The notes beneath the pieces are model-generated. The model was not told where the DNA came from. It did no database searches and saw only the letters and a program-made list of their open reading frames with translations. A stretch of 35,123 nucleotides of DNA from Gemmatimonadota bacterium (GTDB taxonomy: Bacteria > Gemmatimonadota > Gemmatimonadetes > Longimicrobiales > Gaopeijiaceae): contig JAPPNM010000026.1 in NCBI GenBank assembly GCA_028873825.1, forward strand, positions 1 to 35,123, written 5' to 3'. The position numbers were made by a program, and so were the translations under genes. Positions 5,236 through 33,223 of the stretch are shown here, in pieces (positions within the stretch are counted from its first letter, which is position 1; each line of letters opens with the position of its first letter).

Positions 5236-6948
5236 ATGGCCGTTCACCCTCCTCGCGCCCGCTCCCGGTCTCGCACCGCGGCGCTCTCCGCCCGGATCGC
5301 CCCCCTGCCCCTACCAGCCCGTGGACAAAATCCCCCCGGCATTCGAGCGGCGACGCATCCGCGCCGGCCGCTTCGCTTCACCCGTCCACGCTGTAAAGTA
5401 TACGCTACATTATGTAATGTTTGCTATACATTTTGCCCCTCCAAGGCTTCGCTCTGCGTTGCTCCTCGGGCGAATAGCGCTGCTATTCCCCCTTCGTCGC
5501 GCCTTGCCGGCCCGGCGCCTCGCCGCTCTCGGTGCTCGCGGGGCCTTATCCACGGACTGTTCCTCCTGCTCCCGGGGTGCGGGGACGCGCCGGCCCCCCC
5601 GCCGGACGGCGGCCCCCTCGTCATCGACGGCGGCACCGTCGTCGCCATGGACGAGTCGGGCCGGATCCTCGAAGGCGCCGCGGTTGTCGTCGAGGGCGAC
5701 CGAATCTCCGCGCTGCTCGCGCCGGGCGACCCCCGTCCCGGCGGCGCCCGGGTCATCGACGCCACCGGCCACCTGGTCATCCCCGGACTGGTCAACACGC
5801 ACGGCCACGCCGCGATGTCGCTCCTGCGCGGTCTCGCCGACGATCTCCCGCTCCTGACCTGGCTCAACGACTACATCTTTCCCGCCGAGGCCGCGCTCGT
5901 CGCGCCCGACTTCGTCTACTGGGGCACCCTGCTCTCTTCGGTCGAGATGCTGAAGAGCGGGACGACCACGTTCGCCGACATGTACTACTTCCGCGACGAC
6001 ATGGCCCGGGCCGCGACCGCCGCCGGCATCCGCGCGGTCACCGGCCCTCACGTTATCGGCTTCCCCACCCCCGACTTCGCCACCCCCGAGGCCTCGCTGG
6101 CAGGCGCGGCGGAGTTCATGGAGCGGTACCGCGACCACCCCACCGTGGTACCGGCCGTCGCCGCCCACGCCCTCTACACCACCCCCCTCGAGGCGGTCGA
6201 GGCCGCCTTCCGGCTCGCCGAACGATACGACGCGCCCTTCCAGATCCACGCCGCCGAGGACCCCTCCGAGGACGCTGCCGCGCGGGAGCTGACCGGCATG
6301 GGGGTGGTCGAGGCGCTCGGCTCCATCGGCGCGCTTCGGCCCGGGACCGTGCTGGCCCACTCCGTCTACCTCTCGGACGAGGACATCGCGCGCATCGCGG
6401 CGAGCGGCGCCGGGATAGCGCACAACCCGCAGAGCAACATGAAGCTGGGCGTAGCGCGGGCGGCCCCGGTCGCGGCGGCGCTCGCGGCGGGAATCCCGGT
6501 GGGGCTGGGAACGGACGGGCCCGCCAGCAACAACGATCTCGACATGTTCGACGAGATGGACGCCGCCGCCAAGGTTCAGAAGTTCATGCTGGGCGACCCT
6601 GCGGCGCTCCCCGCCGAGACCGTCTTCCGCATGGCCACCGCGGGAGGCGCGCGGGTGCTCAACCTGCACGGCGAGATTGGGTCGCTGGAGCCGGGCAAGC
6701 GTGCCGACATCGTGCTGGTCGACGTGCGGCGCCCAGGGCTGACGCCGCTTTACCGCGTCTATTCGCACCTCGTGTACGCGGCGCGCGGCAGCGACGTGAC
6801 GACGGTGATCGTCAACGGCCGCGTGGTGGTGCGCGACCGCGAGATCGTCACCGTGGACGAGGAGGAGGTGATGGAGCGCGCGCGGGGCTTCGGCGAGCGG
6901 GTGCGGGAGGTGATGGAGAAGGTGGCGGCCGGGCGGGCTGGGGGATGA
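5236..6948 (+). CDS. Amidohydrolase, MTA/SAH-deaminase-like, with lipoprotein-type N-terminus interrupted by a repeat
   Basis: This is a metal-dependent amidohydrolase closest in pattern to 5-methylthioadenosine/S-adenosylhomocysteine deaminases and atzA/trzA-type chlorohydrolases. Metal and substrate motifs are NTHGHAAMSLLRG (HxH), QIHAAED, VLAHSVYL, AHNPQSNMKLG and GTDGPASNNDLDMFDEM, followed by a GSLEPGKRADIVLVD C-terminal strand. The homologous part seems to start at LFLLLPGCGDAP, a lipobox-like end of a signal peptide (Cys near 5578). The residues before it are encoded by a repeat element, and no ATG, GTG or TTG exists in frame between 5236 and 5647. The listed start (ATG 5236) runs through the repeat. 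The ATG at 5647 would remove the first beta strand and the signal. The original start was probably destroyed. The exact substrate cannot be fixed from motifs. Confidence 0.8.
   Translation: MAVHPPRARSRSRTAALSARIAPLPLPARGQNPPGIRAATHPRRPLRFTRPRCKVYATLCNVCYTFCPSKASLCVAPRANSAAIPPSSRLAGPAPRRSRCSRGLIHGLFLLLPGCGDAPAPPPDGGPLVIDGGTVVAMDESGRILEGAAVVVEGDRISALLAPGDPRPGGARVIDATGHLVIPGLVNTHGHAAMSLLRGLADDLPLLTWLNDYIFPAEAALVAPDFVYWGTLLSSVEMLKSGTTTFADMYYFRDDMARAATAAGIRAVTGPHVIGFPTPDFATPEASLAGAAEFMERYRDHPTVVPAVAAHALYTTPLEAVEAAFRLAERYDAPFQIHAAEDPSEDAAARELTGMGVVEALGSIGALRPGTVLAHSVYLSDEDIARIAASGAGIAHNPQSNMKLGVARAAPVAAALAAGIPVGLGTDGPASNNDLDMFDEMDAAAKVQKFMLGDPAALPAETVFRMATAGGARVLNLHGEIGSLEPGKRADIVLVDVRRPGLTPLYRVYSHLVYAARGSDVTTVIVNGRVVVRDREIVTVDEEEVMERARGFGERVREVMEKVAAGRAGG
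5319..5555. repeat. Palindromic mobile-looking repeat, long copy (CCGTGGACAAA ends)
   Basis: The segment begins CCGTGGACAAAATCCCC and ends GGGGCCTTATCCACGG. These are imperfect inverted termini of about 17 bases. Its last 48 bases (5508-5555) recur with three mismatches, in inverted orientation, at 17717-17764. A short relative lies at 6990-7023. Inside are the perfect dyad GAATAGC-GCT-GCTATTC (5472-5488) and an AT-rich operator-like dyad near 5406. No transposase is encoded, so it resembles a MITE or REP-type element. It ends inside what should be the signal peptide of the following amidohydrolase. Confidence 0.6.
5398..5429. promoter_or_regulatory. AT-rich dyad TACAT-T-ATGTA
   Basis: The core TACATTATGTA (5406-5416) is a perfect 5+1+5 dyad, flanked by GTATAC on the left and CTATAC on the right. 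It stands out sharply from the surrounding GC-rich DNA. The same TACAT-N-ATGTA core occurs in the larger dyad at 7061-7099. It may be an operator or a promoter island lying inside the repeat element. The protein that binds it is unknown. Confidence 0.4.
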
Positions 6949-7060: not shown

Positions 7061-7099
7061 TGTCAACTGCGATTTACATAATGTAAAGCACAGTTGTCA
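7061..7099. promoter_or_regulatory. Long dyad operator centred on TTTACAT-A-ATGTAAA
   Basis: The dyad is centred on base 7080. The inner arms TTTACAT/ATGTAAA and the outer arms CAACTG/CAGTTG are perfect, and 16 of 19 paired positions match over 39 bases. This is far more symmetry than chance allows in GC-rich DNA and suggests a dimer or dimer-of-dimers binding site. Its TACAT-N-ATGTA core is shared with the site at 5406, and the ATGTAAA/TTTACAT arms recur at 20171-20190. Confidence 0.5.
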
Positions 7100-7679: not shown

Positions 7680-9346
7680 TCGCCTGGATGGTGTACGCGG
7701 CGGCGGTCGGCGTGACGGTCTCGATCGGCGGCCTCGCGCTCGAACGACTGGCGGCGGCGGCAGGGCAACCGCGCAGGATCGGGTGGTTGGCGGCCCTGAC
7801 TCTCGCGGTACTGATTCCGCCGGCGGGGGGATGGCGCAAGCCGGCGCCGGCGCCGGATGCGGAGATCGTCGCCACCGAACCCGCGGCGGCCGGGGGAGTC
7901 GCGGTCGGTGAACTCTGGAGCGCGATTCCCGCCCTGACCGCTCCCCGGGGAATCGCAACGGGAAGGATCGCGGCCATGGCGTGGGGCGCGGGCTCCCTGG
8001 CGACGCTGGCCGTTCTGGGCGGCGTACTGGCGCTTGTCGCGCGGGGGCGCCGCCGCTGGGAGCGAAGGACGATGTGCGGCACCGAGGTCTACGTGTCGCG
8101 CGGTTTCGGCCCCGCCCTGGTCGGCATAGCCAGACCGGAGGTCGTACTCCCCGCGTGGGTGGTGCGGCTGGAGCCGCGTGCCCGCGAAGCGATCGTCCGG
8201 CACGAGCTGGAACACGCCCGGGCGAGGGACCACCTCGTGCTGCTCTGCGGCGGCTTGGCGGTGGCGGCCTTCCCGTGGAGCCCCGCGATCTGGTGGATGT
8301 ACCGGCGGCTCCGCGCCGCCGTGGAACTGGACTGCGACCAACGGGTCCTGGCGTCGGGGATCGGGGTCGCCGACTACGGCGACGTTCTCCTGAACGCGGG
8401 ATGCCGTTCCCGTGGCCGCTGGGGATTCGCTCCGGCCATGGGTCAACCCGAGAGTCTGCTCGAACGGAGGCTGAAGACGATGAGCGAGAAGCGAAGGAAA
8501 CCGAATGCGGGACATGCGGCGCTGCTCGCGGCGGTGGCGGTGGGGGCGGTCGTTGTGGCGTGCGATACCCCGGTACCGACCGAGGTGCGGGAGGCGTTCG
8601 AGGAGGTGACCGCGGATCGGCGCGTGGAGCGTACCGAAGCGGAAATGGAACGACGGAGCGTGCGGCTCCGGCTCTTGCGGGACTTTGCGGTCACGGGCCG
8701 CAGCCGGGACTCCGGCCCGATCGTATACCTGGACGGCGTCCGGGTCCCAGGGCCGCGGGAAACGTCCGACGGCGAGGATCCGCTGTCCCGGCTGGATCCC
8801 CGCGATATCGCCGTCGTCGAGGTGCTGAAGGGACCTGCGGCCAGGGAGCTGTACGGCGACGAGGCGGCGAGCGGGGTGATCCTGGTGCTAACGAAGGCGG
8901 TGGAGGACGCCCGGAAGAGACTGCAGGCGACGCTGGCCGAGTACGAAGCCGAGATCGGCAAGCTCGAAGCCGACTACCGGAGGTCGGAAGCCGACTACCA
9001 GAGGGCGTTGGGCGAGTACCGGCAGCGGCAGGTGACGACCGGACAGGCGCGGGCACAATCCCTGCGCGAGCCGAAGGCCACGGAACTCGTCGTGACGGCA
9101 GAGACGGCGGCTTGGACGAAGTGGCTCACCGAGAATGCGGCTTCCGGTACGCCCCCGGGTTGGAGTCCGGTCATCTACGTCGACGACGTACGCCTGGATG
9201 GCGGCGGATCCGGGGTGGACAGGCTGTCTCCCGCGCTGGTCGCCGATCGCATCGACCGCATCGAAGTCGTCAAGGGGGAGAGGGCCGGGGAGCTGTACGG
9301 CGACGAGGGGGAGCGCGGCGCGATCCGGATCTTCACGAAGAAGTAG
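7676..9346 (+). CDS. M56-family (BlaR1-like) membrane protease with two TonB-plug-like C-terminal modules
   Basis: Residues 1-125 hold several hydrophobic segments. The zinc protease motif HELEH is at about residue 175, followed by a LLCGGLAVAAFPWSPAIWW membrane segment and an LDCDQRVL helix, as in BlaR1/MecR1. A last hydrophobic segment near 285 then leads to an extracytoplasmic tail. The tail carries two similar modules, each ending in a (V)EV(L/V)KG....ELYGDE...G.I pattern like the plug of TonB-dependent receptors (about 350-410 and 500-556). They are separated by a Glu/Arg-rich coiled coil (about 410-460). BlaR1 itself carries a penicillin-binding sensor instead, so this tail may be a different sensor or anchor. 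At 556 residues it overlaps blaI by 4 bases. The signal and substrate are unknown. Confidence 0.85.
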   Translation: MIAWMVYAAAVGVTVSIGGLALERLAAAAGQPRRIGWLAALTLAVLIPPAGGWRKPAPAPDAEIVATEPAAAGGVAVGELWSAIPALTAPRGIATGRIAAMAWGAGSLATLAVLGGVLALVARGRRRWERRTMCGTEVYVSRGFGPALVGIARPEVVLPAWVVRLEPRAREAIVRHELEHARARDHLVLLCGGLAVAAFPWSPAIWWMYRRLRAAVELDCDQRVLASGIGVADYGDVLLNAGCRSRGRWGFAPAMGQPESLLERRLKTMSEKRRKPNAGHAALLAAVAVGAVVVACDTPVPTEVREAFEEVTADRRVERTEAEMERRSVRLRLLRDFAVTGRSRDSGPIVYLDGVRVPGPRETSDGEDPLSRLDPRDIAVVEVLKGPAARELYGDEAASGVILVLTKAVEDARKRLQATLAEYEAEIGKLEADYRRSEADYQRALGEYRQRQVTTGQARAQSLREPKATELVVTAETAAWTKWLTENAASGTPPGWSPVIYVDDVRLDGGGSGVDRLSPALVADRIDRIEVVKGERAGELYGDEGERGAIRIFTKK

Positions 9347-17716: not shown

Positions 17717-17782
17717 CCGTGGACAAAGCCCCGCGAGCACCGAGAGCAGCGAGGCGCCGGGCCGCGGGGATTTCGTCCATGG
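17717..17782. repeat. CCGTGGACAAA palindromic repeat, 66-base copy
   Basis: The segment begins CCGTGGACAAAGCCCCGCG and ends CGCGGGGATTTCGTCCATGG. The 20-base ends are inverted copies with four mismatches. Bases 17717-17764 are an inverted copy of 5508-5555 (45 of 48 identical). It sits between the tlpA-like gene and the permease and supplies a false start for the longer permease frame. Confidence 0.6.
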
Positions 17783-18335: not shown

Positions 18336-18587
18336 GGGACCCCCCCTCCGGCTGGACTTTCGAAACACGTGGCCTCAAGCTACCCAAAGGGGCGCGGGCC
18401 GGCCAACGGCGCGGGAGCGCCGGCGAGGTCGCGCGGCGGCGCGGGCAACCCCGCGGCGCGGAGGCCGGCGCGGGCGCGGCAACCCCGGGACTGGAAGCGG
18501 GCGCCGAATTCGCGTGCGGGAACCGGAACCCCCCGGCGCCCCGGCACGTAAGGAGCCAGGGAGTTTCCTCAGACGGGACTACGATAC

Positions 18588-19274
18588 ATGACCACGGACC
18601 GAACCCGATCCGCCGCGCGCCGGAAGCTGACCTTCGTCGCCGGTTTCGCCATCTACTTCGCCGCCCTGTGGCTCCTCTGGGACACGCCGGCCATCTACCC
18701 GCTCAAGATCTTCGTGGTAATGCTCCACGAGATCAGCCACGGGATCGCCTCCCTGGCCACGGGGGGCACGATCGACAGGATCGTCCTGGACCCCCAGCAG
18801 GGCGGCGCCTGCCACTGCGGCGGCGGCAACGCCTTCCTGACCCTGTCGGCGGGATACCTTGGCAGCCTGCTCTGGGGCGTGGCGCTGCTGGCGCTCGCGG
18901 GGGCGCGACGCATCTCGAACGCCACGCTGCTCACAGTGATCGGCGGCCTCGTCGTGCTCCTCACCGCGCTTTACGTGCGCAACGGATTCGGGCTCCTCTT
19001 CGGCCTGGGCTTCGGGTCCGCCCTGCTGATCGCCGGCCGCAAGCTCGGACCGCTCGCGAGCAAGGTAGTGCTCACGACTCTGGGCCTCACGAGCTGCCTC
19101 TACGCGATCCTGGACATCAAGAGCGACGTGCTCGACAGGCCGCACCTGCAAAGCGACGCGGCCATGCTCGCCGAGATCACGCCGCTGTCGACGACGGCGT
19201 GGGGGGCGGTGTGGATCGGGGTGGCGGTGATCGTCAGCGGGGTGGCGTTCGCGAGGGCCTACAGGGCGGCTTGA
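18588..19274 (+). CDS. M50-like (site-2-protease type) membrane metallopeptidase
   Basis: The protein is 228 residues with about six hydrophobic spans. The zinc motif HEISHG lies at residues 48-53, inside the second membrane segment (IFVVMLHEISHGIASLATGG), as in the M50B-like peptidase family. A Gly-rich NAFLTLSAGYLGSLLWG segment follows, which in these proteins lies near the active site. A second C-terminal Asp motif is replaced by a D.KSDVLDR loop (LDIKSDVLDRP, about 175-185). Family members cut membrane-bound substrates such as anti-sigma factors, but none is encoded here. The last 43 bases of the gene lie in a 76-base direct repeat, and an internally deleted copy of this locus occurs at 21560-21678. 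Confidence 0.82.
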   Translation: MTTDRTRSAARRKLTFVAGFAIYFAALWLLWDTPAIYPLKIFVVMLHEISHGIASLATGGTIDRIVLDPQQGGACHCGGGNAFLTLSAGYLGSLLWGVALLALAGARRISNATLLTVIGGLVVLLTALYVRNGFGLLFGLGFGSALLIAGRKLGPLASKVVLTTLGLTSCLYAILDIKSDVLDRPHLQSDAAMLAEITPLSTTAWGAVWIGVAVIVSGVAFARAYRAA

Positions 19275-19307
19275 GGGGGCGGAGGGGTCGAATGTCAACC
19301 GGAACTG
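19232..19307. repeat. 76-base direct repeat, left copy
   Basis: Bases 19232-19307 are identical to 21603-21678, on the same strand. The left copy spans the last codons and stop of the M50-like gene and reaches into the last codons of the lipoprotein gene on the opposite strand. The two copies enclose the lipoprotein and DUF4143 genes. Confidence 0.9.
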
Positions 19308-19957
19308 ACTACCGTCACCTCCATGTCGAGCGAAGCGGCCAACCCGCCGGGGTCCTCCGCCACAACCGTAACGGTCGCGGAACCCGGCGCCACGCCCTTG
19401 ATCCTGACGGCCTCCGCCAACACGAGGACGGTGGCCACCTCCGTGTTCGAGGACGACGCGGTAAGCCGCAGTTCCTCCCCATCCGGGTCTTCGAAGCAGG
19501 GTACGACAAGAACGGTCTCCCTCACTTCCAGTGGCGGTGGCCGGGGCGGGGTGTCGCATACCTCCGGTGCCCGGTTGCCTAGCACCGCAACGCCGAATTC
19601 CTGCCGGGCGGTCTGGCCGGCGGGATCCGTCGCCACGACCGCAATGGTCGCCGAACCCGGCGAGACGCCCTTGACGCTGATGGCGGAATCCTGCGCGGCG
19701 GCGGTCGCAACCTCCACGTCCGACGACGACGCGGTCAGCTTCAGTTCCTCCCCCTCCGGGTCTTCGAAGCACGGCGCGAGGCGCACCTCCTCCTCCAGGC
19801 CGAGCGTTTGTTGCGGTATGCTGCCGCACGCCCCGGGAGGCTCGGAGTCCTCCCCACAGGCGAAAAGGCAGACGGCCGCGACCGCCAGCGGCAACCGGCG
19901 GACAAGCAATCCGCGGTCCGGCAGCGGTGAGCGTACGGATGAAAGCGGGTGACACAT
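19295..19957 (-). CDS. Lipoprotein with two tandem Ig-like (cadherin/BIG-type) repeats
   Basis: The 220-residue protein starts with a signal peptide ending in the lipobox AVCLFACG (Cys about residue 33). Two homologous modules follow, each reading CFEDP(E/D)GEEL(K/R)LTASSS, then VATxxx...(I/V)KGV(S/A)PGSAT(I/V)(A/T)VVA.DP.G. This pattern is typical of Ig-like or cadherin-like domains of exported Gemmatimonadota proteins, in which aromatic and Asp residues of DPDGD..Y are common. It is likely a surface or periplasmic binding module, but no partner is obvious. The ATG at 19957 has GGAAAGG about ten bases upstream. A degraded duplicate of its signal-peptide coding region lies about 200 bases upstream. 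The gene's 3' end overlaps the 76-base repeat shared with the 21.6-kb locus. Confidence 0.7.
   Translation of the reverse strand: MCHPLSSVRSPLPDRGLLVRRLPLAVAAVCLFACGEDSEPPGACGSIPQQTLGLEEEVRLAPCFEDPEGEELKLTASSSDVEVATAAAQDSAISVKGVSPGSATIAVVATDPAGQTARQEFGVAVLGNRAPEVCDTPPRPPPLEVRETVLVVPCFEDPDGEELRLTASSSNTEVATVLVLAEAVRIKGVAPGSATVTVVAEDPGGLAASLDMEVTVVSSG
19888..19939. repeat. Direct repeat in the signal-peptide coding region (copy A)
   Basis: These 52 bases encode the start of the lipoprotein's signal peptide. A diverged copy with six substitutions and one indel lies at 20088-20140. Confidence 0.7.
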
Positions 19958-20087
19958 CGGAGTATTCCTTTCCCGTGGAGTGGTGCGCGGCAGGGCCGCC
20001 CGGCGGCGACCCATGGTCAGGTATACTCCTGAAGCGCGGAACTCGCCCGGCGCTACCATTCGGACGTCTGTCACGGTCGGGCGGGCA

Positions 20088-20140
20088 GCGGCAACCAGCG
20101 GACAACGAGTCCGCAGTACGGCAGCGGTGAGCGTACGGAG
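20088..20140. repeat. Direct repeat upstream of the lipoprotein gene (copy B)
   Basis: This 53-base diverged copy of 19888-19939 has the same orientation. Its minus-strand frame reads RTLTAAVLRTRCPLVAAA, like a decayed signal peptide start. No lipoprotein module follows it, so it is a remnant of a tandem duplication. The 148 bases between the copies (19940-20087) hold the gene's start region and a TATAC-containing stretch near 20029. Confidence 0.6.
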
Positions 20141-20150
20141 GGGAGCTGGT

Positions 20151-20190
20151 GTCAACCGGGGTTGACAGAATGTAAAGTGGGGTTTACATG
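20151..20190. promoter_or_regulatory. Two adjacent palindromes, TGTCAACC-GG-GGTTGACA and ATGTAAA-N6-TTTACAT
   Basis: The first dyad (20151-20168) has perfect 8-base arms and a 2-base spacer. The second (20171-20190) has perfect 7-base arms and a 6-base spacer. They lie between the lipoprotein gene, which reads away, and the end of the DUF4143 gene. The mix of TGTCAAC and ATGTAAA elements repeats that of the 7061-7099 dyad. It is a candidate operator and promoter region for the lipoprotein, about 190 bases before its start. Confidence 0.45.
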
Positions 20191-20208
20191 GGAGGGACCC
20201 CCGCTCCC

Positions 20209-21405
20209 TCAACCGGGGCCTGCGGGAAGCGGCGGGGAAGCGTCAAGTCGCGCGAGCAGTGCGGGCAGGTCCTCAAGCGGGACGACCTCGCAGTCCCCCC
20301 GCGACCGCCGGTCCGTTCCTCCATGGACCACGGCCTTGGCGCTGACTCGCGGGAGCAGCTTGGCGACGCGGTCGAGCGCCGCGAGACGACTCCCGCGGAT
20401 CCTCGTCCCGGCCTTGGTCTCGATCGCACCGATGCCGTTGCCGTTCTCGTAGAGCAGGTCGCATTCCAGCCCGTCCGCGTCCCGGAAGAACGTGAGATTC
20501 GACCGGCGGCCCGTGTTGAAGCGGTGCTTGAGGGCCTCGACCACGACGGCCTTCTCGAAGAGCGGCCCCCGCGCCGGGTGCGCCGCCATCTGGCCGGCGT
20601 TCTCGATGCCGAGAAGGTGGCCGGCCAGTCCCACGTCGTGGAAGTAGAGCTTGGGCAACTTGACGAGGCGCTTGCGGATGTTGGCGAAGAAGGGCGGCAG
20701 CCGAAAAACGACGTAGCTCGCCTCGAGGACGGTGAGCCAGTGGCGCGCCGTAGCCTGCGGCACGCCGGCATCCGAGCCCAGGGAGCCGAGGTCGGCGAGT
20801 TGGCCCACCCTCGCCGCGCAGAGACGCACGAACCGGCGGAAGGCGGACAGATCGCGGATCTCGCCGATTCGCCGAACGTCGCGTTCGACGTAGGTCTCGA
20901 GGTAGTCCCCGAGCGCCTGCGTGGGATCCAGCCCGCGATCGTGAATCCGCGGATAGAATCCCGAATAGAGGATGTCGTCCAGCGCGTCGCTCGCTCCGGT
21001 GCGCCGCCGTTCGGCGAGGGAGAACGGCAGGAGCCGCAGCAGCGCCGTTCGGCCGGCGAGCGACTGGCCGATGGTCTCCGAGAGGCGAAACTGTTCGCTC
21101 CCGGTGAGGACGAAGAGGCCGGTTCCACCGTCTTCGTCGGCGAGGACCTTCAGGTAGGACACGAGATCCGGAACGCGCTGGATTTCGTCGAGGATCGCTC
21201 CCTGGGGGAACCGTGCGAGAAAGCCTCGCGGGTCGGACTTGGCGAACGCCCGGCGGTCGGGAGCGTCCAGGTCCACGTGGGGGAGCCCGGGGAAGGCGGC
21301 GCGGCAGAGCGTGGTCTTCCCCGACTGTCGCGGCCCGGTGACCGTGACGAAGGGGTATTGGCGGAACAGGCCGACCAGGACGGGCGTGATCTCGCGCTCG
21401 ATCAT
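20209..21405 (-). CDS. AAA ATPase with C-terminal DUF4143 domain
   Basis: The 398-residue protein has the two-domain layout of the widespread AAA_14/DUF4143 family. The ATPase part has Walker A GPRQSGKTTL (about 24-33), Walker B GAILDEIQRVPDLVSYLK (about 78-95) and a sensor motif FVLTGSEQF. The DUF4143 part, beginning near YLETYVERDVRRI, ends in a PD-(D/E)XK-like fold with FFRDADGLECDLLYE and AIETKAGT. The ATG at 21405 gives the typical MIEREI start. The longer frame upstream runs through the repeat remnant and is not coding. These proteins are common, often in toxin-antitoxin or mobile contexts, and their physiological role is not settled. The gene lies inside the interval bracketed by the 76-base direct repeats. 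Confidence 0.9.
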   Translation of the reverse strand: MIEREITPVLVGLFRQYPFVTVTGPRQSGKTTLCRAAFPGLPHVDLDAPDRRAFAKSDPRGFLARFPQGAILDEIQRVPDLVSYLKVLADEDGGTGLFVLTGSEQFRLSETIGQSLAGRTALLRLLPFSLAERRRTGASDALDDILYSGFYPRIHDRGLDPTQALGDYLETYVERDVRRIGEIRDLSAFRRFVRLCAARVGQLADLGSLGSDAGVPQATARHWLTVLEASYVVFRLPPFFANIRKRLVKLPKLYFHDVGLAGHLLGIENAGQMAAHPARGPLFEKAVVVEALKHRFNTGRRSNLTFFRDADGLECDLLYENGNGIGAIETKAGTRIRGSRLAALDRVAKLLPRVSAKAVVHGGTDRRSRGDCEVVPLEDLPALLARLDASPPLPAGPG

Positions 21406-21559
21406 GCGGGGTAATGTAGGGGAGGGGGAGGCCGCGGGCAGGTCGGTGGCGGCGGCGCGCTTCGCGGTCGGGAAAGCGGTCTTCGCGCTCGCCGCGCCAC
21501 TCAGGTGGACAAGCCCCGGATCGGCACCGGGGAGCCGGCCGACGAACTGCATCACCGGT

Positions 21560-21678
21560 GCGGCAACCCCGGAACCGGAAGCGGGCCCCCGGCGCCACGG
21601 CACGTCAGCGGGGTGGCGTTCGCGAGGGCCTACAGGGCGGCTTGAGGGGGCGGAGGGGTCGAATGTCAACCGGAACTG
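21560..21678. repeat. Internally deleted duplicate of the M50 locus (includes right copy of the 76-base repeat)
   Basis: Bases 21560-21586 match 18476-18502 (25 of 27), bases 21587-21605 match 18531-18549 (18 of 19), and bases 21603-21678 are identical to 19232-19307. The copy therefore joins the upstream region of the M50-like gene directly to that gene's last 76 bases, with the whole coding part removed at a shared CGT. The rest of the 21406-21715 gap holds no recognised gene. Confidence 0.75.
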
Positions 21679-21715
21679 TCGGGAGTAGTCAACCCGTCGC
21701 GGCGGCCTGGCCCGC

Positions 21716-21997
21716 TTACCGGCCGGAGGCTTCTTCAAGTTCCGCAAACATCTCGTCCGCGCTCGCGAATCGCGCCGCGCGCGTGCTGACCATCTCGTCA
21801 ACCTCGGCCATGGCTTCTCGCGTTTTCGCGTTGGGAACCTTGAGTTCAAGCGGGAACGCCTGATCGACGGCAATGCGATGGAACAGAAGCCGCACGGCCT
21901 CCGAAGCCGTCAAGCCCATCGCCGCGAGCGCCGCCATCGCTTTCCGCTTCATCTCGGTGTCCATCCGCACATGCACCATCGAACTCCGTGTCTTCAT
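21716..21997 (-). CDS. RelB/DinJ-family antitoxin, without a visible toxin gene
   Basis: The 93-residue protein is a ribbon-helix-helix antitoxin of the RelB/DinJ type. It has the N-terminal strand MVHVRMDTEMKRKAMAAL, the helix-turn LTASEAVRLLFHRIAVDQAFP, which is the family signature, and a charged C-terminus that would wrap a RelE/YafQ-type toxin. The ATG at 21997 has a strong AGGAGG 6 bases upstream. Antitoxins of this family repress their own promoter and neutralise a ribosome-dependent mRNA endonuclease encoded just downstream. Here the downstream side holds only the repeat remnant and then the DUF4143 gene, so the toxin partner seems lost or encoded elsewhere. Confidence 0.85.
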   Translation of the reverse strand: MKTRSSMVHVRMDTEMKRKAMAALAAMGLTASEAVRLLFHRIAVDQAFPLELKVPNAKTREAMAEVDEMVSTRAARFASADEMFAELEEASGR

Positions 21998-22880
21998 CCG
22001 AACCTCCTGTATCTCAATTGCGATCCACCGTCGTGTTTCGTCGTGAACGAGTCAAGCCGGTGCCGACAACGGCGATCCCCGGGCGGCGGCATCCCCTCTC
22101 GCAACCCGCCCCACGGCGGTTCGGTGGACCAGCAGTCGCGGCACCGCTAGCCACTGTACCCAGTCGCGAATCGCACTGCGGTCCAGACCCGCCAGCTCGG
22201 GTCCGAAGACGGTGTCCGGATCCCGGTCGGTGTAGCCGCACGCCGTCGGCCACCCGAGAGCAACCCCGGAAACGGTGGCGGGGATCGGCGGGGGACCTTG
22301 CTCCCCGGCCCCAACGCGGACCGATTTGGACTAAATTGGTCAGAATTGTCTGGTGGAGGACGCCGGTGGCGCGACGAGGGACATGGGCAATCCGGCGGCC
22401 CGCCGTCCCCGGCGCCATGACCGCCGACATCCTCGCCCGCCCTACGACGCTCCAGGCCGAGGCCCTCCGTCTCCTCGGCGTCCGCCCATGACCCGTACCC
22501 AGTAGCGTACACTCCCGGAATCGCACTATGTCACTGCGCCGCAATCACTTGCCTGACTAACCCGAACTTCGAGAGAAGGCGCGTGGCTAGGTTCTGGTCA
22601 CGACAAGAACATAATAACAGGCGAATTAGTCACGTTTTGGTCATACAGAAGATCGGCTTCAGCCGTCAGTGAGCAGTACGCTTCACAATTCGCTATCCCC
22701 ATGGACATCAGTCTTGACGAGAGCACACTCAGTCGTCATACTGCAACTACGAGTTCGGTGGGTGATTCCCGCCGAAGATCGCACCCATATCCAAGAGGAC
22801 GAAAGCACTAACCTTGCTTCTGACTGACCTGGCCGCTGGACCACACTCCCCGACCGCCCAAATCCCAGAGGAGAAGAAGG
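21998..22880. other. 0.9-kb region without a recognised gene, upstream of the cas operon
   Basis: No frame shows a recognisable protein with a start. On the minus strand, about 22060-22330, one frame without any start codon reads CGYTDRDPDTVFGPELAGLD followed by RSAIRDWVQWLAV. It looks protein-like but matches nothing I know. From about 22540 to 22830 the composition turns markedly more AT-rich than the flanks, which fits a promoter or leader region or imported DNA. I looked for CRISPR repeats here and found none. Confidence 0.4.
22714..22742 (+). promoter_or_regulatory. Candidate promoter for the cas operon
   Basis: A -35 TTGACG (22714-22719), a 17-base spacer and a -10 CATACT (22737-22742) lie in the AT-richer stretch, about 140 bases before the small ORF and about 275 before cas3. 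The spacing is ideal but the -10 is only a partial match. Confidence 0.3.
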
Positions 22881-22991
22881 ATGGCCGAGCTCACGAACCG
22901 CCAGATCGGCGGGAGCGCCGAGGCCACCGTAACCGTACTCCTCGATTCGCGCGAGCGTACGTTCGCCGGTGTCACCCCCACATCGACCTAA
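22881..22991 (+). CDS. 36-residue ORF with a strong ribosome binding site just upstream of cas3
   Basis: This ORF is too short for the supplied track. An ATG follows AGAGGAGAAGAAGG, the best ribosome binding site in the region. The frame reads MAELTNRQIGGSAEATVTVL, continues LDSRERTFAGVTPTST and stops at TAA, 26 bases before the cas3 GTG. I recognise no family. It could be a leader peptide, a real small protein, or the 5' stub of a larger lost gene, since the N-terminus looks like the start of a normal soluble protein. Cas3 itself starts at a GTG without an obvious strong site, so translation of this ORF may help that of cas3. Confidence 0.4.
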   Translation: MAELTNRQIGGSAEATVTVLLDSRERTFAGVTPTST

Positions 22992-23017
22992 TGGACTGCG
23001 TGGCAGGAGTTTAAGGC

Positions 23018-25622
23018 GTGACAACCAATCCCGCCTTGGCGACAGCTCCCGCGAACCTTGATCTGGGAGGTCTCTATCAGGCCGCATTCGGACGACCGAT
23101 GTCCCTCGGTTGGCAGCGCGCTCTCGTAGACGGCAGCTGGCCCGAGGTCCTGATCGCTCCGACGGGATCCGGCAAGACTGCCGGCGTGACGTTGGCATGG
23201 GCGCATCGTCGGCTCCACCGGCCCGAAGCGACTCCGCGCCGTCTCATCTGGTGCATGCCGATGCGCACGCTCGTGGACCAGGCGGCCGACGAGATTCGCG
23301 GGTGGATGGCGCGATGCGAGGCGAAGGGAGTCAACCCCGAGGGACTGATTCCGCGGCGTGAAGACGTTCATGTCGTCATGGGCGGCGCGGATTCGGGGGA
23401 TTGGCGCCTCAAACCCGAACGTCCTCTGATCCTCGTGGGAACTCAGGACATGATGCTCTCCAGGGCCTTGATGCGCGGCTACGCGTGCTCGAGGGCGGCG
23501 TGGCCCATGGAATTCGCGCTGCTGCACCGGGACGCGCAGTGGGTGTTCGACGAGGTGCAGCTGATGGGGGCGGGGCGCGCAACCTCCGCGCAGCTGGAGG
23601 CGTTTCGGCGGGGGGAGCACGAACGGGGCGTTTCGGGAAGCCGGTCGCGCGAGCCGGTTTGCAGAAGCCTCTGGATCTCGGCCACGCTCGAGCCGGAATG
23701 GCTCAAAACCGTGGATCACCCAGCTCCAACCAGGGTGCTGCGGGTAGAGCCAGCGACAGAGGATGACCCAAGGCTGCTCAAGCTCGCGCAGGCCGCGAAG
23801 CACCTGCATCGGGCTCCGGCCGCACCCGAGTCCTCCTCGGCCGCGCACGTGCGGGACTACCTCGCCCGGCTGGCCGAGTCCGTCGTTGACGCCCACCGGG
23901 CGGGTGGCATGACGCTCGTGATCGTCAACCAGGTCAAGCGCGCGCAGGAGCTGTACGCGAGCGCGGGCCGCATTCTCGCGCGTCGCGAGCGCAGGAATGC
24001 TGTTCCGAAGCTCGTGTTGCTGCATTCACGGTTCCGTGCCGCGGACCGTGAGCGTAAGATGGAATGGACTCGGGCCGACCCGGGCGAGCACGGGATCATC
24101 GTGATCTCAACTCAGGCGGTGGAGGCCGGCGTCGACATCTCCGCGGCGGTCATGGTCAGCGAGCTCGCTCCGTGGGCGTCAATGGTGCAGCGGTTCGGGC
24201 GGGCGAACAGGCGAGCCGAGGTCGATGGCGGTGCCGAGGTGCACTGGATCGACCTGCTGGGGCGCTTGGATGCCGACGACACGGCTGGAGAGAAGCAGGC
24301 CGTGGCCCTGTCGAAACCCTACGACGTCGACGATCTGCGCGAGGCCCGCGCGAAGCTCGTTGCACTTGGCGATGTGGCTCCGGTTCATCTGCCGCCACCC
24401 GGCGACATCGACCCTCCTTTGCGCGTGATCCGGCGCAAGGACCTCGACGAGCTCTTCGACACCGACTCGGACCTTACCGGGTTCGACGTCGACATCTCCG
24501 CGTACGTGCGCGACGCCGAGGACACGGATGTCCGGGTATTCTGGCGTGACCTGACGGAACCGGCCGACGATCCTCCGAAGCCCAGCGCAAACGAACTTTG
24601 CGCGGTGCCGATCGGGCAGGCGAAGAGGTGGATCCAAACGGCGACCGAGGCGTCCGGTACGGTCTTCTTCCGTCGCGATCCGCAGTGGCGCCGCCGCGAG
24701 GGAGCGGCGGAGTCCCACCCTCCGGGATGGCCTCCCCTTTCCCCGCGCGATCCGCCGTGGCCCGGACTCACGATCCTGGCCGACGTGAGGGCGGGAGGAT
24801 ACCGGGAGGATCTGGGCTTCACCGGCAACCGGAAGCACCGGCCGGCTCCAGTAGACCCCGACGCAGGGGCCGCGCGCGTGTCGGCGGCCAAGTCGGACGG
24901 CCACCGAACGCCGGAGGAGTCGGACGGATACGACGAGGACCCCGTGAGCCAAGCCGGACGGCCGGTGTCGCTCGCGGGTCATCGGCGGCACGTGGTTCGG
25001 GAGGTGCGCCATCTGGCCGGCGCGTTGCTGCTGCGCAACGAGACTCGCACCCTGCTCCTGCGCGCCGCGCGCTGGCACGATGTCGGAAAGGCGCACGAGG
25101 TCTTCCAGGACACGATGCGGCGCGGGCTGGACGGACAGGTGGTCCAGGAGAACATGCTGCTGGCCAAGACCGTGCTGAGAACACGCCACAAGCGCCGTTT
25201 CCGCCACGAGCTGGCGTCGGGACTGGCGTTTCTGGCTCACGAAGGCTGGCGGCGTGACGCGGATCTGACCGCGTACCTCATCGTCGCGCATCATGGGAAG
25301 GTGCGGATGAACCTGCGCGCGCTGCCGCGGGAGCAGGGACCGAAAGAGCCTGAGCGGGCCGGCGCCCGGTTCGCCAGGGGGGTTTGGGAAGGCGATCGCC
25401 TGCCCCCGCTCGACCTCGGAGGCGATGAACGATGGGAAGGCGGGCGCTTGACGCTGTCGGTCATGGAACTCGGCTGGGACGAGACGACGAGGGAAAGCTG
25501 GACCGAGCGGACACGGGTTTTGCTCGCGCGACTCGGACCGTTTCGGCTGGCTTGGCTGGAGACGCTGCTGCGCATCGCCGACCAGAGGGCGTCCGCGAAG
25601 GAGAGCGCGGGCCGATACGACG

Positions 25623-25630
<8 letters not shown>
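23018..25630 (+). CDS. cas3: Type I-G (I-U) Cas3 helicase-nuclease, helicase first, HD last
   Basis: The 870-residue protein has the reversed domain order of subtype I-G Cas3. The SF2 helicase comes first: Walker A APTGSGKT at about 46-53, the DEAH-box equivalent FDEVQLMG at about 177, SATLEPEW, VEAGVDIS at about 366 and QRFGRANR at about 390. An HD nuclease comes last: HRRHVVREV near 660, the HD pair in RWHDVGKAHEVFQ at about 685, and a later HHGK at about 757. In type I systems Cas3 is recruited by Cascade to unwind and degrade target DNA. All motifs look intact. It starts at GTG 23018 and overlaps the next gene by 8 bases, so the operon is translationally coupled. Confidence 0.93.
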
Positions 25631-28971
<3,341 letters not shown>

Positions 28972-28977
28972 GCAACC

Positions 28978-30639
28978 GTGTTCGGGTTTGCCTTCCGGTT
29001 TCCGGCCGGACGATACCACGCCACGCCGTGGGGCCGAAACGTCAACGAGGCGGATGTCGCGTGGCCGCCGGAGCCGTGGCGGATCCTTCGGGCGTTGATT
29101 GCCTGCTACTGGCGCAAGGGAGACCGGGAGCGCTGGAGCGAGGACGACTTGGCGCGGCTCGTCGATGCCTTGGCCGCCGATCTTCCCGTGTTCCGTCTGC
29201 CGGAGGGTGCCATTCACGCCCATACGCGGCACTACATGCCGATCAGGAAAGGGAGGGCCGAGTCGAGAACTTTGGTCTTCGACGCCTTCCTGCATCTTCC
29301 AGACGGCGGGGAGGTCCAGGTCATCTGGCGGGGCGTGGCACTGGATGGCGATCTGCTGGAGCTTGCTGGCGATCTTGCGTCCGGAATGGGCTATCTCGGC
29401 CGGGCCGAGAGTTGGACCGAATGCCGCGTGATTCTCGAAGCCGATGGCGAGCCGAACTGCGGCCCGGCGGAGGGCGGGTTTGCGGGCGAGTCGTTCCGGC
29501 TGCTCCTGCCGCGGTCGGCCACGTCCTACCGGGCGGTGCGCGAGCGGCTAATGAGGGAGGAGGGAGACCGCATTCGGGCCGCTGCGAAGAAACCGATCAC
29601 CGAGCGCGCACTTCGGGGCCGAATCGCCAAGTCGTTTCGGGCAAAGTCCGTGGACACCCTCCCCGCCCGCTTGGTAGACGCCATCACGGTGGACACCGCC
29701 GACCTCCAGAATCGCAAGTGGAACCGCTCCCCCGCAGCCTACGAGGCTATCTACGCGCGGGATCCCGCGACCAATCCCGGTGTTGTGCCGCGTTCGCTCG
29801 GGAGGCGCAGAATCAGGAGGGCAAGCAGCGTGAAGAACCAACCGACCGTCGCGCGCTATCTCCTGGCGGGCCGACCGCGCCCTCGAATCGAAGATTCGGT
29901 GAAGATCGGCGAGGTGATGCGGGCGGCGGCGCTGTCGAAGTTCGGGTGGGCCACCGATGACGTCTCCGGGAAGCGGGTGCCACGCGCCCCGTGGCAGGTC
30001 ACCGGGCGCGACGAGCAGGGCCGCCCGCTTCGCGACCCGGCCCACTCTCACGCGTTCTGGCTCCCCGAGGATGCCGACGAAGACGGATGGATCGATCATG
30101 TGACGGTATTCGTCGCCGACGGCATGGACCACAGCGTTCGGTCAAGGCTCGACCGGATCACGCGGCTCTGGATCACCGCGAGAGCTCGTGACGAAGCTGG
30201 GGAAAAGCCGAAGATCGACGAGTGGCGCCTGGCCCTGGAGGGGTTCGGCAGCAGGGAGGACTTCGCCGGGGCTTCGCGGCTGCTGGCCACATCGCGGCGC
30301 TGGCGGAGCGTAACTCCGTTATTGGCGGCGGGCCACCTGAAGAAGGCCGGGTACGAGGGAGAGGTGCACCGGCTGCTTCGGCGGCGCGGGATTGCGACGG
30401 AGGGTGTGGCGGTCGAGGAGTTGCGTGACATCGATGTCGGTGGCACGGCACGGCGCGCGCTGAACTTCCACAGGTTCCGCTCGCGGGGGCGGGAGCGGCA
30501 GATCGACACGAGGGGGGCTTTGCTGGAGATCACGTTTCCAGAGGATGTTCGGGGACCGCTGGCTCTCGGGTACGCCAGCCATTTCGGGTTGGGAGCGTTC
30601 GGGGGTGTTGGGGACGCGAACACCACGGGAGGGCGTTGA
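28978..30639 (+). CDS. csb2: Type I-G Csb2 (fused Cas5-Cas6)
   Basis: The 553-residue protein belongs to the GSU0054/Csb2 family, which combines the Cas5 role (5' handle binding) with the Cas6 role (pre-crRNA processing) in subtype I-G. Visible signatures are the RAMP-type start MFGFAFRFPAGRYHATPWGR, then WPPEPWRILRALIACYW, HYMPIRKGR, the PVARYLL-like strand TVARYLLAGRP, and the well conserved HSHAFWLPEDADEDGWIDHV (about 360-380). The C-terminal glycine-rich loop GYASHFGLGAF is the expected RAMP motif. It begins at GTG 28978. The cas10-like gene starts 3 bases after its stop, which is operon-like spacing. Confidence 0.92.
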   Translation: MFGFAFRFPAGRYHATPWGRNVNEADVAWPPEPWRILRALIACYWRKGDRERWSEDDLARLVDALAADLPVFRLPEGAIHAHTRHYMPIRKGRAESRTLVFDAFLHLPDGGEVQVIWRGVALDGDLLELAGDLASGMGYLGRAESWTECRVILEADGEPNCGPAEGGFAGESFRLLLPRSATSYRAVRERLMREEGDRIRAAAKKPITERALRGRIAKSFRAKSVDTLPARLVDAITVDTADLQNRKWNRSPAAYEAIYARDPATNPGVVPRSLGRRRIRRASSVKNQPTVARYLLAGRPRPRIEDSVKIGEVMRAAALSKFGWATDDVSGKRVPRAPWQVTGRDEQGRPLRDPAHSHAFWLPEDADEDGWIDHVTVFVADGMDHSVRSRLDRITRLWITARARDEAGEKPKIDEWRLALEGFGSREDFAGASRLLATSRRWRSVTPLLAAGHLKKAGYEGEVHRLLRRRGIATEGVAVEELRDIDVGGTARRALNFHRFRSRGRERQIDTRGALLEITFPEDVRGPLALGYASHFGLGAFGGVGDANTTGGR

Positions 30640-31287: not shown

Positions 31288-31333
31288 GCTGCTTGAGAGA
31301 TGATTGGCTTCACTCACGATGCGGGAGCATAGC

Positions 31334-33223
31334 ATGACCCACGAAACGCCCGAACGGGAACACGTCCTCCTCACCGTGCTCGGGACCAATCCACGGAATG
31401 CGACCTACGAGCTGGGCGGCGTAACGCAGGATGCCCGCCTGGCACCCGTGGCGCTGCTGCGCCTTCTACCCGAAGTTCGCCGCCCCACGCGGGTACTCGC
31501 CCTCTGCACCGGGGAGGCGAGTCAGGAAAGCTGGCCAAGCCTCGAAGAGAACCTTCCCCAAGGCTGCGCGGCCGACCTCGTGGACCTTCCGGACGGCGAC
31601 TCGCCCGAGGATGTCGACACGTTCCTGGAGGTGGTCGCGGAGGCTGTCCCCGGCCGCGCCGGCCTGACCGTCGACGTGACCCACGGCTTCCGGCACTTCG
31701 CCTTCCTCACCTACGTCGGCGTTCTCTATCTGGCGGCCCTGCGCGACGTGACGATTCGCGGCGCATACTACGGCCTGTACCGGCGCGACCGGACAAGTCC
31801 CTTTCTCGATCTGGCCCCTTTGTTGGAACTGCCGCAATGGATCCACGCGGTCAAGGTGCTGTCCGAGACGGGCAGCACCCTGCCGATTGCGGAGGCCATC
31901 AAGGCGAGACGCGGGTCTTCGCGGCCGGAGAGTCAAGTGGTTCACAACCTGTATCGGGAACTGTCGCGCTTTTCCTCGGCCTATCTTTCCGGCCTGCCGC
32001 TGGAGCTCGGGGCGCAGACGCGGCTCATTCTCGATCAGCATCTCAAGCCGTTGCGGAAGAGGCTGGTGCAGGTGCACCGTGTCCCGCTCGCATCTCGGCT
32101 CGTGAAGGATCTCGAGCAGGCGATGACTGCCTACGATCTTCCCCCCGAATCGGCTTCCCCCAGGGGGGCCTGGAAGGGTCGCATGGGCCTTAGTGACAAC
32201 GAGCTGAGGCGACAGGCCAAGGTCGTTGACGACCTGCTGCGACACGGGAACCTCCCGGCGGCCCTGGGCCTGATGAGTGAGTGGACCGTTTCCTGGATGA
32301 CATGGCGGCGGGGGCGCATGGCCGACTGGCTGGACCATCACGGCGGCAGGCGCGAGGCGGCCAACGCTCTCAACGCCATGGCCGCCGCCGCTGACGACGC
32401 CGAGCTTCGAGCCAGCCTGCTGGACGAGCAGCCCGACCTCGGGCGGTTCTGGAAATCACTTCGCGAGCTGCGCAACGGATACGCCCACCACGGCATGAGG
32501 CGTCAGGACTTGGTCGCATCACCGGACTTGGACGCCCGTCTCGCCAAGGTGCACGAGTACTGGAATGTGCTTCGCGCCCGTCCGCAACTCACAGTCGCAC
32601 TTGACGAGGGATCAAACGCGCGCCTGCTGGTCAGCCCCATGGGACTGCCGCCAGGCGTGCTGTTCAGCGCGCTCCACGCGTGTCGCTCCGACGGCGGGTT
32701 CGGCGAGCCGACAGAGTGCATCGTCGTCTGTTCCGCCGAGACCGAGGGAGGCATCGCGGAGGCCCTCCGGGCCGCCAGATACGAGGGTGCCGCGACACCG
32801 CTGGTCCTCTCGGACCCGCACGGAGGCAGGACGGAGATCAAGCGCTTGCTGACCGGTGCGCGACGGCGGATCTTCGGAGCGAGGGAGATGCTCGTCAACG
32901 TTACGGGAGGAACGACGCTCATGGGACTTGCGGTGGAGGCGCTTGCGAACGAGGGCCGTCGGCTCGCCTGCCCCGTCCGCCGCTTCGGCCTCATCGTGGC
33001 CTTATTGTCGTGGGGGGCCGGCTCCCGCCCGGGATGTCACCTCCTCGTTGCGTCACGAATGATGTCGTGGTTGCAGTGGTTCAACATCACGAATTCGCCG
33101 CCGTCCTCTCGGCGACCAGGTGACCCGGTTCTTTCGGTCGACATATGCCTCCCACACCTCGTCGGCGGTTCCCCGTATCCGGTGGACCTTGAGCCCTGGG
33201 TGCCGGGGGTTACTCTCCAGTAG
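31334..33223 (+). CDS. CARF-HEPN-CARF protein of the Csx2/Csm6 class, C-terminus probably replaced
   Basis: The N-terminal CARF domain (about 1-190) has LLTVLGTNPRNATYELGG and the Csx2-type motif LTVDVTHGFRHFAFLTYVGV (about 112). The middle part holds a HEPN-like helical bundle with the RNase motif R-x4-H in RELRNGYAHHG (about 375-385). A second CARF-like domain follows, beginning RLLVSPMGLPPGV (about 429) and carrying LVNVTGGTTLMGLAVEALAN (about 518). CARF domains bind cyclic oligoadenylate made by Cas10, and HEPN cuts RNA. Past VRRFGLI (about 33,000) the frame runs antisense through a toxin gene until 33223, so the natural end seems lost. The ATG at 31334 has GGGAG 7 bases upstream. An earlier TTG at 31304 is less likely. 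Confidence 0.78.
   Translation: MTHETPEREHVLLTVLGTNPRNATYELGGVTQDARLAPVALLRLLPEVRRPTRVLALCTGEASQESWPSLEENLPQGCAADLVDLPDGDSPEDVDTFLEVVAEAVPGRAGLTVDVTHGFRHFAFLTYVGVLYLAALRDVTIRGAYYGLYRRDRTSPFLDLAPLLELPQWIHAVKVLSETGSTLPIAEAIKARRGSSRPESQVVHNLYRELSRFSSAYLSGLPLELGAQTRLILDQHLKPLRKRLVQVHRVPLASRLVKDLEQAMTAYDLPPESASPRGAWKGRMGLSDNELRRQAKVVDDLLRHGNLPAALGLMSEWTVSWMTWRRGRMADWLDHHGGRREAANALNAMAAAADDAELRASLLDEQPDLGRFWKSLRELRNGYAHHGMRRQDLVASPDLDARLAKVHEYWNVLRARPQLTVALDEGSNARLLVSPMGLPPGVLFSALHACRSDGGFGEPTECIVVCSAETEGGIAEALRAARYEGAATPLVLSDPHGGRTEIKRLLTGARRRIFGAREMLVNVTGGTTLMGLAVEALANEGRRLACPVRRFGLIVALLSWGAGSRPGCHLLVASRMMSWLQWFNITNSPPSSRRPGDPVLSVDICLPHLVGGSPYPVDLEPWVPGVTLQ

Follow-up and report, generated by a model that had tools for sequence, protein, structure and literature searches.

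Tandem duplication remodeled by deletion is a general process in bacterial genomes. Direct repeats of a different origin, the attL/attR repeats of integrative elements, occur at the 3' ends of genes, and the term 'orphan antitoxins' of type II toxin-antitoxin (TA) systems is reportedly used in a 2023 mBio paper (PMC10790755). The locus described here resembles each of these in part, and is probably the scar of a tandem duplicate of a gene block, the second copy of which was almost wholly deleted via two microhomology deletions. The process is ordinary genome decay and the details are new; gene amplification has been reviewed (PMC11721125), and our literature searches returned general context only.

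The window, an entire contig of 35,123 bp, belongs to a metagenome-assembled genome (MAG; 3.3 Mb in 183 contigs, 93% complete), and the closest genomes by the M50 protein are Gemmatimonadota/Longimicrobiales MAGs. The case rests on this single MAG, no second assembly of the same species having been found. A search of Rfam gave no match anywhere in the window. The features that bear on the scar are the following.

18473-18552, plus strand: M50 upstream segment, source of the relic before the right repeat (alignment to 21556-21602)
18588-19274, plus strand: intact peptidase M50B-like gene, 228 aa (Pfam PF13398, E 2.4e-43)
19232-19307, plus strand: 76-bp repeat, left copy (43 bp of the M50 3' end, 20-bp spacer, 13 bp of the 3' end of the convergent lipoprotein gene)
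19295-20017, minus strand: lipoprotein-like gene with two tandem Big_2/He_PIG-type repeats (Pfam PF02368, E 1.2e-11; start codon uncertain)
20086-20154, minus strand: relic of a second lipoprotein 5' end, 69 bp (84% identical to 19886-19954)
20150-20188, no strand: 39-bp double palindrome, TGTMAAN6TTKACA-NNN-TGTMAAN6TTKACA (another copy at 7061-7099)
20209-21405, minus strand: intact DUF4143 AAA ATPase gene, 398 aa (Pfam PF13635, E 1.5e-43; PF13173, E 1.5e-23)
21556-21602, plus strand: collapsed copy of the M50 upstream segment (alignment to 18473-18547)
21603-21678, plus strand: 76-bp repeat, right copy (meets the M50-upstream relic at CGT and yafQ at CAGTTCC)
21672-21738, minus strand: yafQ remnant, first 22 codons (alignment to intact YafQ genes in relatives; TTG as inferred start codon)
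21716-21997, minus strand: intact RelB/DinJ antitoxin gene, 93 aa (TIGR02384, 62.3 bits, cut-off 45.65)
22142-22296, minus strand: AAA-ATPase_like/PDDEXK_9 gene fragments (intact in the relatives L040, L042 and L043; Pfam PF09820, PF08011)

An earlier sequence-only reading had proposed 76-base direct repeats around a lipoprotein gene and a DUF4143 gene, and the repeats proved real: the copies at 19232-19307 and 21603-21678 are identical over 76 nt, lie in direct orientation with their starts 2371 bp apart, and enclose both genes, each of which was recognized there. They form the only pair of exact direct repeats of at least 30 nt in the window, compared with the ~17 nt that chance would give for the longest exact repeat in a 35-kb sequence of like composition, and the 76-mer with its left flank has no further occurrence in its own genome. 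In a 420-kb sample, which defines the background count in place of the entire genome, no other exact direct repeat of such length and spacing stood alone; most of the others were tandem repeats with a short period or repeat runs between copies of gene size. The same reading took the repeat to be the last 76 bases of the M50 gene, a description that holds for 43 bp; the rest is spacer (20 bp) and lipoprotein gene (13 bp), and the left copy thus covers the stop codons of both convergent genes. A hairpin or other structural role for the 76 bp was rejected, as its single-strand folding was no better than that of shuffled sequences (z = 0.87 for the 76-mer).

The sequence preceding the right copy ties the repeat to the M50 locus. 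Positions 21556-21602 align with 18473-18547 upstream of M50 over 46 bases with four mismatches (91%) and one 28-bp gap, an alignment equaled by none of 2000 dinucleotide shuffles and by none of 364 other tiles of the window, and the best match of this relic in the whole 3.3-Mb genome is the M50 upstream region. The right copy therefore consists of M50 upstream sequence followed by the M50/lipoprotein tail, with order and orientation unchanged from the left, but with 683 bp missing between them at a 3-bp microhomology, CGT. A duplicate collapsed by deletion would look like this, and the proposal that the interior of a second M50 locus had been removed here is largely supported. At its other end, the right copy terminates within yafQ, where 7 bp (CAGTTCC on the minus strand, read as GGAACTG at 21672-21678 on the plus strand) are common to the join and the lipoprotein gene end. 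GGAACTG is native to the yafQ gene of the relative L135, exactly at the position of the join, and beyond codon 22 of yafQ and CAGTTCC the sequence continues as the end of the lipoprotein gene on the same strand.

What the second join interrupts is a TA module. The yafQ remnant is 65% identical to YafQ over residues 1-26, and the intact toxin of relatives belongs to the Pfam family YafQ_toxin (E 6e-27). The RelB/DinJ antitoxin locus is shared by most genomes of the genus, and relatives often carry an intact toxin gene of the YafQ family after the antitoxin gene, but in the window dinJ has no complete YafQ gene beside it and so does not form a complete DinJ-YafQ module. Since no other DinJ and no intact YafQ were found in its own genome, of which 93% is represented and in which a copy could therefore have been missed, this DinJ is an orphan antitoxin. 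We also considered a YafQ-DUF4143 fusion protein, as one reading frame runs uninterrupted from the start of yafQ across the right repeat and into DUF4143, but 19% of shuffles of this stretch likewise left a frame open; the open frame alone is thus no evidence, and the candidate was rejected.

Taken as a whole, the arrangement is that of collinear direct copies with internal deletions in the second copy and microhomology at the joins, as in a collapsed tandem duplication. In the proposed sequence of events, a block of ~3.08 kb (~18473-21556, comprising the M50 upstream region, M50, the lipoprotein gene and DUF4143) would have been tandemly duplicated, with the dinJ-yafQ module situated beyond it. 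One deletion in the second copy would have taken 683 bp of the M50 body between shared CGT triplets, and the other would have extended from the terminal 13 bp of the second lipoprotein gene to about codon 22 of yafQ at the shared CAGTTCC, removing the remainder of the second block together with the remainder of the toxin gene. Copy two would thereby have been reduced to ~46 bp of M50 upstream sequence and the 76-bp junction at which the M50 and lipoprotein genes end. The exact repeat, the arrangement of the parts, both microhomologies, the truncated yafQ and the intact counterparts in relatives are observed; that a duplication took place, in which order the deletions followed and that a second DUF4143 gene once existed are inferred. 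The distances agree closely: 3084 bp between the upstream copies, less 683 and 28, gives 2373, and 2371 was observed. The repeat takes in the lipoprotein gene end, so M50 and the lipoprotein gene were already neighbors in the sequence that was copied. The outline given by the sequence-only reading, duplication followed by hollowing out, stands, but it missed the second deletion, from the lipoprotein gene end to yafQ, and its 2.37-kb unit has to be replaced by an implied original of ~3.08 kb.

This account has a weak point in the unequal divergence of the two pieces, which differ between copies at 0 of 76 bases in the repeat and at 4 of 46 in the upstream relic (Fisher p = 0.019), a pattern not expected from a single duplication in which all pieces have the same age. 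It may be accounted for by gene conversion between the 76-bp copies, a second event or template switching. Furthermore, three events are invoked for a scar of 120 bp, and none of the relatives examined shows an intermediate in which a second M50 or a second DUF4143 is still intact at the locus. A one-step templated insertion is an alternative that deserves consideration, though we regard it as unlikely: template switching would have repaired a break, or a stalled fork, lying between DUF4143 and yafQ, copying first ~46 bp upstream of M50 and then the 76 bp of M50/lipoprotein ends, over a distance of 2-3 kb, and finally joining yafQ. The short microhomologies at both joins (CGT and CAGTTCC), the small size of the filler and the nearness of the template are all compatible with such a repair, and a second gene body need not have existed. 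Yet the order and orientation of the source are kept, as would be expected from duplication followed by deletion but is not necessary under template switching, and with the upstream piece 9% diverged and interrupted by a 28-bp gap, joint recent copying of both pieces is hardly likely.

Comparison with relatives places the enclosed genes and the scar in time. The M50 protein is 71-89% identical to its counterparts in all 22 other genomes of the genus. In L042, a close relative, an eroded and internally deleted DUF4143 orthologue lies between M50 and an intact AAA/PDDEXK_9 gene, and is 92% identical at the nucleotide level to the window gene over 513 bp; both domains of the latter, PF13635 and AAA_14, score above their curated cut-offs (148.8 and 83.6 bits). 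As DUF4143 beside M50 is common to the window and L042, it predates the repeat, and the notion that it is fresh cargo had to be abandoned. The two copies of the duplicated sequence differ at 4 of 122 bases, far below the 21-34% at fourfold sites between the window and L042, indicating that the duplication is young relative to the split of the two lineages.

These comparisons leave little room for a mobile element, in which the 76 bp would be attachment sites or a target duplication and the lipoprotein and DUF4143 genes the cargo. Exact direct repeats at a gene 3' end that enclose two accessory genes do have that appearance, but no integrase or transposase gene was recognized between them, L042 has DUF4143 adjoining M50 without such repeats, a simple target duplication leaves the M50-upstream sequence and the cut yafQ at the right copy unexplained, and plasmid and viral collections gave no match; we consider this origin extremely improbable. 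Site-specific integration of the 2.37-kb unit in particular was rejected, there being no integrase and DUF4143 being older than the repeats. An empty site matching the unit ends was not found among the relatives, of which L042 has DUF4143 without repeats and L040 and L043 have the AAA/PDDEXK_9 gene in that place.

The same alignments bear on the assembly. A chimeric join in a metagenome-assembled contig could in principle have produced the right copy, the more so as there is one MAG in 183 contigs to go by and no second assembly of the species, but the right copy is more than an isolated repeat: it is joined at short microhomologies inside yafQ, and its diverged M50-upstream relic exists nowhere else in the genome. 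Moreover, both flanks belong to this lineage, the DUF4143 side being 92% and the AAA/PDDEXK_9 side 93% identical to the L042 locus. An artefact therefore seems quite improbable.

The surroundings of the scar are eroding generally. AAA/PDDEXK_9 survives in the window only as fragments, of which 22142-22241 is 93% identical to L042 positions 8079-8177 and 22242-22296 skips to 8895-8952, a clean internal deletion of 717 bp relative to L042; L041 retains a 28-residue stump of this gene after the M50 stop codon, and L040 and L043 have it intact directly after M50, with no DUF4143. The lipoprotein gene, which has an internal repeat of 172 nt (76%), is absent from the M50 locus of L042, and relatives of it occur elsewhere in the same genome, several of them consecutively on one contig. 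Its 5' relic at 20086-20154 is a further collapsed piece, inside the repeat-bounded unit, and this relic and the gutted AAA/PDDEXK_9 gene both count in favor of duplication followed by decay. A broader proposal, that the space after M50 is a recurrent exchange site in the genus where DUF4143, AAA/PDDEXK_9 and dinJ-yafQ come and go between M50 and the defense genes, with short identical repeats such as the 76 bp providing homology for gain and loss, strikes us as very doubtful.

Overlapping the lipoprotein relic is the 39-bp double palindrome, which is genus-specific and present in 123 copies in the genome (at most three mismatches) versus none for a reversed control. Copy numbers range from 1 to 243 per genome across 23 genomes of the genus, and at most two mismatches gave 13-58 copies in nine genus members versus 0-2 in 52 other genomes of the order. 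The copies are degenerate, those inspected were mostly intergenic, and the covariation of positions 4/36 and 12/28 is that of a single long palindrome. Elsewhere in the window, a 48-nt inverted repeat, 94% complementary, lies at 5508-5555 and 17717-17764, 12.2 kb apart.

The repeat region also adjoins a CRISPR locus. Type I-G effector genes (cas3g, cas8g1/csx17, csb1/cas7g and csb2) occupy 23018-30639, preceded at 22500-23017, before cas3, by a stretch of clearly lower G+C (0.56 versus 0.69) with no recognized gene. Next to the type I-G genes, at 31304-33223, is an ORF of 639 aa with a CRISPR DxTHG motif, whose match to the CRISPR-associated family TIGR02221 is below the cut-off; a repeat search of the window revealed no CRISPR array.

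The scar itself has no evident function. It probably leaves the cell with an antitoxin deprived of its toxin and with 76 bp of homology for gene loss: recombination over the repeat could plausibly remove the lipoprotein and DUF4143 genes while sparing M50, as the sequence-only reading suggested, a loss seen in no relative examined. The most instructive part is the visible route by which a toxin gene is lost, which suggests a stepwise view in which a TA pair loses its toxin as a by-product of the trimming of a neighboring duplication. The locus also illustrates the erosion of accessory genes beside a CRISPR locus, and serves as a clear worked example, without adding a new principle.

Set against known systems, the locus resembles attL/attR repeats in its exact direct repeats over a gene 3' end and in the accessory genes they enclose, but here there is no integrase, DUF4143 is an old resident, and the right repeat comes with M50-upstream sequence and a truncated yafQ. 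With orphan type II antitoxins it shares an intact DinJ/RelB-family gene that has no functional toxin gene adjoining, and it differs in that the cause is legible, about codon 22 of yafQ being fused to the end of the lipoprotein gene. Like other tandem duplications remodeled by deletion, it displays collinear remnants of the unit, short microhomologies at the joins and an eroded surplus copy; it stands apart in that ~120 bp of the second copy are left and that the gene for a TA toxin was partly taken along.
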